From Bugulina stolonifera (Eukaryota > Bryozoa > Gymnolaemata > Cheilostomatida > Bugulidae), in NCBI GenBank assembly GCA_935421135.1, contig OW285196.1:15559001-15623000 (forward strand): a stretch of DNA of 64,000 nt, given 5' to 3'. Position numbers and translations under genes: made by a program. Positions 7,501 through 63,278 of this stretch are shown here, one piece after another. The first letter of the stretch is position 1; every line of letters begins with the position of its first letter. The notes under the pieces are model-generated. The model made no database searches and was not told the DNA's origin. It saw nothing but the letters and a program-made list of their open reading frames with translations.

Positions 7501-9414
7501 TCCCAATACTTTCAGACCTTTAACAGTCATGTGAACCTTTAGGGTGACAATTCCATCAATTAATGGATGAAAGCTTGGTGCATAGAAAGTACCATAAATT
7601 TTCATTATTTATCTGTTAGCTTTGCTAATACCAAGTTAAACGAAAACCATAAGATTAAAATAAAATTTTAAAGTTAAGAGTTAATAGTTTTCAAACACCT
7701 TTTACTGGTTGACCTTTACCTCTAGTGTGTCAATGAAAGTAAATATTATCATAGAGAACATAACCCATAATAACTAGATGAATGCTGAGTGGCTAATCAC
7801 TATATCGGATGTAGCCGGTTCATGGGGAGACAACTATGAATGAACGTTCAAGACTGTCCAGTGATACCCAGTGATATCCAGTGATACCCAGTGTAAACTA
7901 TACAAGGTAATGAACCACATACATGTGTAGGTCTAGAGTGAGGTACTACCCTACAATTAGTATCTTAGAGAGTTGTACAAGTCTGCTAGTTATACTCGTA
8001 TTTGTGAACTTCTAACCCTCCCCTCCCCCTATAGAACTTTAGACAAGGATGTCAGAACTAGAGGTGTCTAAATATCCCATGCTCATAGCACCATACCTGG
8101 ACTTTCGACTCTCTTGTAGTGGTAGGGGTTGATACAGACGCTCTTGTTCTCTTTGTTGTTAAAGGAAAACTTACAACATTCGAGGGGTTTGAGTTCGTGA
8201 TGAGACTGGAGGTCAGGCCATCGCCATACTCTGCAGTAGATTACGTGGGGCAGACCTTTCCTATGTGATACCTACAAGTGCATGCAGTAGATTAGCTTAG
8301 AACTAAGGCTTCACATAGTGTGGTATACCTTAGAACTAAGGCTGCACACAGTGTGGTATACCTTAGAACTAAGGCTGCACACAGTGTGGTATACCTTAGA
8401 ACTAAGGTGGAAAAGAAAGGTCGTATTGTATAGTACATACCTGTAGCCTACCATCCAATGATCGTGGAATACACACACATATTATACATGTATATAGCAC
8501 ATACCTGTAGCCTACCATCCAATGATCGTGGAATACACACACATATTATATATAGCACATACCTGTAGCCTACCATCCAATGATAGTGGAATACACGCAT
8601 ATTATATAGTACATACCTGTAGCCTACCATCCAATGATCGTGGAATACACACACATATTATGTATAGTACATACCTGTAGCCTACCATCCAATGATCGTG
8701 GAATACACGCATATTATATAGTACATACCTGTAGCCTACCATCCAATGATCGTGGAATACACACACATATTATGTATAGTACATACCTGTAGCCTACCAT
8801 CCAATGATCGTGGAATACACACACATATTATATAGTACATACCTGTAGCCTACCATCCAATGATCGTGGAATACACACACATTTACTTGGCTCTCCTGGT
8901 CTACTTAGCGCTTTCTCTAGGTCTTCCAGTGCACCTGTAGAAGACAACACAATAGACAGAATATATACACAGGAGTATTAGTGAACATTAGTGAGTGGGC
9001 AACTCCTGTGCTATACTTGGATCAACAGAACATACATGTAATGATGCTGTATTGTACTACAAAGTTGCATTAATGGACTGGGGGGTGGTAGAGTTCAACC
9101 AATCACAGCCAGTAGTTTCATTCAACTCCGTACCACACACCATGTGTAGGACCTGAGTAGTGTCCTAGGTAGGCTGCTGTGTAGACCACACACAGTATGA
9201 TATGGGCATTAAACAGTAGGCGTATTTGGTATGGGTGTTAAATAAAACCAGTGACATAGGTACCTCTCTCTTTCTTCAGTTTCTTTACGAGTGAATCAAC
9301 AGCCTTCTCTGCCCATTTCTCCTCTTCGTCGCCCTGTTTCCATCCGAGTAGACGTTTTACTGCCGGTGAGGTGAAGGAGAAGAGAGAGTTGAGGCTGGAT
9401 AATCCGGTACTCAT
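4537..9414 (-). CDS. SMAD1/5: BMP-type receptor-regulated Smad (Smad1/5/8)
   Basis: Nine coding exons in gene order: 9414-9264, 8934-8843, 8271-8097, 7368-7168, 6808-6618, 6053-5834, 5629-5498, 5142-5018, 4680-4537. They sum to 476 residues (human SMAD1 has 465). The MH1 domain (exons 1-3) has [17 protein letters not shown], the DNA-binding hairpin [14 protein letters not shown], and the zinc ligands in KCVCIP, LECC and VCINPYHY. The proline/serine linker (exons 4-5) carries SP sites and a PPGY motif expected to bind WW-domain E3 ligases. The MH2 domain (exons 6-9) has [30 protein letters not shown] and [16 protein letters not shown]. These words match Smad1/5 rather than Smad2/3. The C-terminus is ITSVS, so the receptor-phosphorylated SSXS tail is present with Thr at its first position. 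An acceptor AG lies about 18 nt upstream of the ATG, so a 5' UTR exon must lie further upstream. The exon 2 donor sits in an eight-copy tandem array. Confidence 0.96.
4909..4994. repeat. Tandem repeat in last SMAD intron
   Basis: Three copies of a unit of about 28 bp (ACTGATAGTAGTGTAATATA plus ATACATAAT). It lies between the last two SMAD exons and does not touch a splice site. Confidence 0.8.
5279..5315. repeat. Short stem-loop repeat (family A)
   Basis: GAGTTATCCTCT, a short loop, then AGAGGAGATAACTC: a near-perfect inverted repeat of about 37 bp in a SMAD intron. It is a member of the dispersed family described in the findings. Confidence 0.75.
5461..5491. repeat. (GACT)n tetranucleotide repeat
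   Basis: About eight GACT units, placed 6 nt inside the intron from the donor of SMAD exon 7. Confidence 0.85.
8297..8408. repeat. 35-bp minisatellite
   Basis: About three and a half copies of a unit containing TTAGAACTAAGGCTGCACAC and GTGTGGTATACC. It lies in SMAD intron 2, next to the splice-site array. Confidence 0.8.
8434..8882 (-). repeat. Tandem array duplicating the SMAD exon 2 5' splice site (8 copies)
   Basis: Each unit holds, on the minus strand, the last ~36 nt of exon 2 (coding [10 protein letters not shown]) followed by the donor GTATGT and about 20 nt of intron. Exon-end positions are 8843 (the one joined to the complete exon), 8787, 8729, 8675, 8617, 8563, 8505 and 8441, with spacings of mostly 54 and 58 nt. 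Only the 8843 boundary joins cleanly in frame to exon 3. The other copies look like redundant donors inside the intron. Confidence 0.92.

Positions 9415-63278: not shown

Follow-up and report, generated by a model that had tools for sequence, protein, structure and literature searches.

Minisatellites whose repeat unit spans the boundary between an exon and an intron have been described in amphioxus as "mirage" minisatellites, and are reported from Adh3, the globins BflGb6 and BflGb9, troponin C and PGBD5 (PMC3087553, PMC3902484). According to the same reports, the boundary may be of the 5' or the 3' type, the units measure approximately 10-160 bases and many copies carry the AG/GT, while RT-PCR and the Adh3 data suggest that splicing is undisturbed and copy number varies between haplotypes. 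Related duplications have been described in connection with intron gain. In the AGGT model of intron gain by tandem genomic duplication, the duplicated segment holds splice signals, and its copies contain the two ends of the new intron (PMC3443670). A study of novel intron positions in Drosophila describes a duplicated coding segment with a proto-splice site (PMC2891723). For Bryozoa, no report of junction-spanning repeats was found among the matches listed in the open-licence literature, and the word "intron" is absent from the main text of the Flustra genome paper.

We examined a stretch of 64,000 bases from the genome of the bryozoan Bugulina stolonifera (hereafter the window), which was selected because of its junction arrays, together with genes outside it. 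A junction-anchored self-comparison, which demanded at least 6 matching bases on each side of the junction, a score of at least 15 and a copy inside the intron, identified straddling repeats at 12 of the 186 junctions of 93 introns (8/93 5' sites and 4/93 3' sites). Nine of these lie in the window (Table 1), two in the region of the PDS5 and cyclin A genes and one in NOC3. The anatomy is that of the amphioxus mirages, with a repeat unit across the exon-intron boundary, both boundary types duplicated, and many but not all copies keeping the AG/GT, and the arrays thus represent a known phenomenon in a new taxon. They differ in that the host is a bryozoan rather than a cephalochordate, in that they are known here from DNA, and in that their rate was measured against the intron interior and found to be lower. 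As in the AGGT model and the Drosophila case, the duplicated segment contains splice signals; the Drosophila case concerns new introns, whereas in Bugulina existing introns are lengthened.

Table 1. Repeats straddling exon-intron junctions in the window (positions in the window).
Feature	Position	Strand	Repeat	Junction	Remark
SMAD1/5 5' splice-site array	8429..8882	-	8 copies of exon end + GTATGT, spacing 54-64	last exon base 8843	
SREBP 3' splice-site duplication	41041..41131	-	50-base shift, 2 copies	exon start 41057	
SREBP 5' splice-site array	43034..43127	-	32-base unit, 3 copies	last exon base 43117	follows ..HYIA
SREBP 5' splice-site duplication	48891..48997	-	57-base unit, 2 copies	last exon base 48975	exon without homolog support
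RFC3 exon 4 3' splice-site duplication	52191..52270	+	55-base shift, 2 imperfect copies	exon start 52259	
RFC3 exon 5 5' splice-site array	52994..53131	+	spacing 30-34, 4 diverged copies	last exon base 53001	
RFC3 exon 7 5' splice-site array	53713..53872	+	39-base unit, 4 copies	last exon base 53736	in frame, stop-free
CYP24-like P450 5' splice-site array	57964..58251	+	spacing 45-48, 6 copies	last exon base 57977	exon without homolog support
CYP24-like P450 3' splice-site array	61907..62327	+	27-base unit, 15 copies	exon start 62312	AG in 8/15 copies

A first-pass annotation of the window had named nine junctions at which the exon end and splice site are copied, and all nine were recovered. 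Its division into six 5' and three 3' sites is borne out, with the RFC3 exon 4 case sitting at a 3' site; its eight copies at SMAD stand, and 15 copies were counted at the CYP24 3' site. The RFC3 exon 4 case is weak (two short, imperfect copies with a score of 23), and the array detected by TRF near the 5' site of the same exon (52454-52535) begins 13 bases within the intron and does not straddle. As unrelated 1.4-kb stretches gave a match in 5 of 2864 control trials with a 24-base window, the copies at the junctions are true repeats rather than chance matches, a statement that does not extend to their location at junctions. The copies within an array differ by substitutions and by unit length, and the assembly (tzBugStol2.1) was built from HiFi reads at 52-fold coverage with a QV of 55.5 (PMC10213821); nothing was found in favor of an assembly artefact, which almost certainly does not explain the arrays.

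All junctions rest on prediction and homology in one genome of 234,951,659 bases in 27 contigs. The exon-intron predictor was trained on the window, its 50-kb upstream flank and a block of 200 kb from contig C1, and was used in a version with an imposed minimum exon length. It still placed false exons in the SMAD array and read through the SREBP array at 43117, and the exon lists of the window were therefore written by hand. For SMAD and SREBP the exons within arrays were deleted, two further predicted SREBP exons were dropped, and others were added or moved; for CYP24 one exon was added, one start was moved and two exon ends were corrected through a GT-AG check. The resulting model contains 52 introns in SMAD1/5, SREBP, RFC3, CYP24 and three genes which are probably a FUN14-domain gene, an SQSTM1-like gene and RPL9. 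Predicted exons without a recognized gene, around the CYP24 start and before a long open frame, were left out. That frame (32856-36689, + strand) comprises 1278 codons, is intronless in the model and contains about 9 copies of a 132-base (44-residue) repeat, which is presumably TPR-like. Outside the window, 41 introns whose flanking exons each scored 5 or more were taken from neighboring and C1 genes that are probably PDS5-, cyclin A-, PPM1-, NOC3- and glycogen-synthase-like.

Relatives or solved structures served as a check on RFC3 and SMAD1/5, on most of SREBP and on the later part of CYP24. The nearest relatives of RFC3 are from the bryozoans Bugula neritina and Watersipora subatra, and the model in which the three RFC3 junctions lie is collinear with both proteins (80% and 77%, respectively). 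The SREBP junctions at 43117 and 41057 and the CYP24 junction at 62312 agree with tblastn ends, and the SMAD model aligns with SMAD5 chains across the junction at 8843 without a large insert. The SREBP junction at 48975 and the CYP24 junction at 57977 fall outside the aligned stretches of the relatives' proteins and are based on the predictor and on reading. RFC3, SREBP and the CYP24-like gene (window 40691-63227) all have relatives on a Watersipora subatra record with one and the same length (65553477), a hint that their linkage is kept.

Several further repeats were noted in and around the sampled genes. In the window, an ATGTGT hexamer array of 62 copies occupies 27047-27419, and a 41-base unit is repeated 5.1 times at 16052-16259 with 100% identity between copies, so that this array is probably recent; similar translated pieces at 19257-19908 and 30179-30857 lie in opposite orientation and possibly belong to a dispersed element. 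Upstream of the window (-7565 to -4380), a tandem array of 3.2 kb takes up almost the whole of a predicted 3257-base intron of the PDS5-like gene, and in the C1 block tandem repeats of 157-159 bases recur about every 1-1.5 kb (151470-159633 in joined coordinates).

The first-pass annotation had assumed that intronic minisatellites should rarely include splice junctions. This premise fails in this genome because the introns are short (median length of 329 bases in the 93) and repeat-rich, with interior repeats present in 38 of 93; they are also present in 11 of the 12 straddled introns, where they are partly the same arrays. When the junction test was applied to interior positions, repeats were detected at a rate of 16.2% looking downstream, 16.1% upstream and 20.5% both ways, versus 0.4% within exons, the latter determined from the upstream exon of each intron only. 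The 12 straddled junctions thus compare with 30.05 expected from the interior, a ratio of 0.40 (bootstrap 0.22-0.62), with values of 0.52 (0.23-0.89) for 5' sites and 0.26 (0.06-0.60) for 3' sites. Depletion was obtained at all five thresholds (ratio 0.39-0.46, upper bound 0.58-0.74), and it is weaker in the window (9 versus 14.8 expected) than outside (3 versus 15.0). Junctions are depleted of repeats relative to the intron interior.

The same gradient is evident in the profile across the boundary. A local copy is present in 0/93 introns at 36 bases into the upstream exon, and the count increases through 1 and 3 to 7/93 at the 5' junction and 14-21/93 at 24-84 bases within the intron. At the 3' end, 10-16/93 introns have a copy at 24-84 bases before the exon, 7 at 12 bases and 4/93 at the junction, followed by 0/93 at 12-48 bases into the exon and 1/91 and 1/83 deeper. 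A peak at the junction, which was sought in the repeat-probability profile of the 93 introns, was absent, and the rise from exon to intron is smooth. These observations bear on one proposed origin, in which duplication is primed at splice-site words through AGGT microhomology and arrays would begin at junctions. The repeat units at all nine window junctions do contain the splice signal, which speaks for this proposal, but both the missing peak and the depletion relative to the interior oppose it, and the exonic part of the repeat ranges from 7 to 40 bases (40 being the upper limit of the scan), so that the repeats have no constant edge at the splice word.

A slight excess in its favor came from a second test, in which 34 TRF arrays (period of at least 10, score of at least 50) were placed at random wherever they would cover no more than 45 exon bases. 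Ten of the 34 straddle a junction versus 7.4 expected (P 0.18), which is not a significant excess; the window contributes 7/18 versus approximately 4.5 and the outside genes 3/16 versus approximately 2.9. The two tests differ in direction, with depletion in the junction scan and a slight excess in TRF placement, and in neither is there a significant excess at junctions. We regard priming at splice-site words as very unlikely, and the shared special mechanism that had been suggested for the nine arrays does not stand up to the junction counts or to TRF placement.

The abundance of straddled introns in the window is likewise a poor guide to other genes. The earlier estimate of one affected intron in seven, from about 61 introns, becomes 9/52 in the window model and does not generalize, as the neighboring and C1 genes gave 3/41 and a set of seven chaperonin (CCT) genes on six contigs gave 1/31. 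The CCT case is a 3' site with a 47-base unit in 5.4 copies, and this set alone (1 versus 1.5 expected from the interior) indicates neither excess nor lack. The seven genes were drawn from about 12 chaperonin-like places in a family search, leaving out two spread-out C9 places and three others, and introns were kept where both exons overlap a Pfam match and no match lies inside; because of the places left out, the set leans to compact genes and may contain fewer arrays. In the 93 plus 31 introns, a sample rather than the whole genome, overlap between repeats and junctions was no greater than chance, the outcome that the first-pass annotation had itself named as counting against its interpretation.

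A further proposal was that the introns themselves arose by tandem genomic duplication of exon segments carrying AGGT. That introns can be gained through tandem duplication is accepted (PMC3443670), and amphioxus mirages have been proposed to feed this process (PMC3087553). The expected signature, in which the 5' and 3' junctions of an intron are copies of each other (at least 16/30 matches in register), was found in 0/93 introns, in contrast to the AGGT model, and each of the nine arrays includes one intron end and not the other. Compared within the same intron, the 5' and 3' junctions match at a mean of 8.73/30 positions in register versus 8.66 for mismatched pairs; own junctions are therefore no more alike than random pairs, which speaks against intron birth. 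Such an origin appears extremely unlikely for these introns, and intron growth, which had been suggested along with it, is true only in the sense that arrays lengthen introns.

Duplicate splice sites might alternatively be selected for splicing efficiency or isoform regulation. In the window, GT and the following bases are retained in every copy found at five of the six 5' arrays (including 8/8 in SMAD and 6/6 at the CYP24 5' site), and the copies at RFC3 exon 7 and at SREBP 48975 are in frame and stop-free. Against this, AG is lost in 7/15 copies at the CYP24 3' site and straddled junctions are rarer than interior repeats. Stronger splice sites at straddled junctions were also considered and rejected, as the scores of these donors and acceptors resemble those of the remaining sites (P 0.43 and 0.92). 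We give selection for duplicate sites very little credence. The suggestion that selection tolerates duplications where a good site is kept is the best fit of the three earlier explanations, despite straddled sites having no greater strength than the rest.

We consider it very probable that the arrays are accounted for by ordinary tandem duplications at arbitrary positions that are tolerated when they cross one junction. No special mechanism is required because junction repeats are no commoner than repeats elsewhere in introns. Minisatellites would arise anywhere by ordinary tandem duplication in short introns rich in such repeats, and a duplication spanning one splice junction would survive more often than one within an exon, since one intact site still yields normal mRNA. 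At a 5' site the first copy would provide the normal exon end and later copies would turn into intron, while at a 3' site the last copy would supply the normal exon start; the arrays could afterwards expand and contract like any other minisatellite. Selection would then be the cause of the depletion at junctions, where some duplications appear to be tolerated, perhaps more readily at 5' than at 3' sites, a difference that 8 versus 4 cases are too few to establish.

Splicing presumably uses the first copy at 5' sites and the last copy at 3' sites. In a read-through test of SMAD, CYP24 57977, SREBP 43117 and 48975 and RFC3 exon 7, splicing at later copies would add an in-frame stop in SMAD (7/7) and at CYP24 57977 (5/5) and the SREBP 43117 copies shift the frame, whereas RFC3 exon 7 (39, 78 and 117 bases) and SREBP 48975 (57 bases) remain open; the RFC3 proteins of the two relatives contain no inserted copies. 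Because only surviving duplications are counted, a mutational bias directed at junctions could be masked by strong selection. It is conceivable, but unlikely, that mutation favors junctions and selection removes most of the products, with the survivors, such as the in-frame 39-base copies of RFC3 exon 7, continually supplying new exon ends and proteins of slightly greater length.

The earlier interpretation is thus partly supported, and the preferred reading of ordinary duplication with tolerance extends an oddity of lancelets to another animal phylum. It provides a quantitative control, in that junction-straddling repeats are to be expected where introns are short and repeat-rich. The rate at junctions relative to the intron interior offers an estimate of the tolerance of genes for duplicated splice sites, which in this sample amounts to approximately half of the interior rate for 5' sites and a quarter of it for 3' sites.
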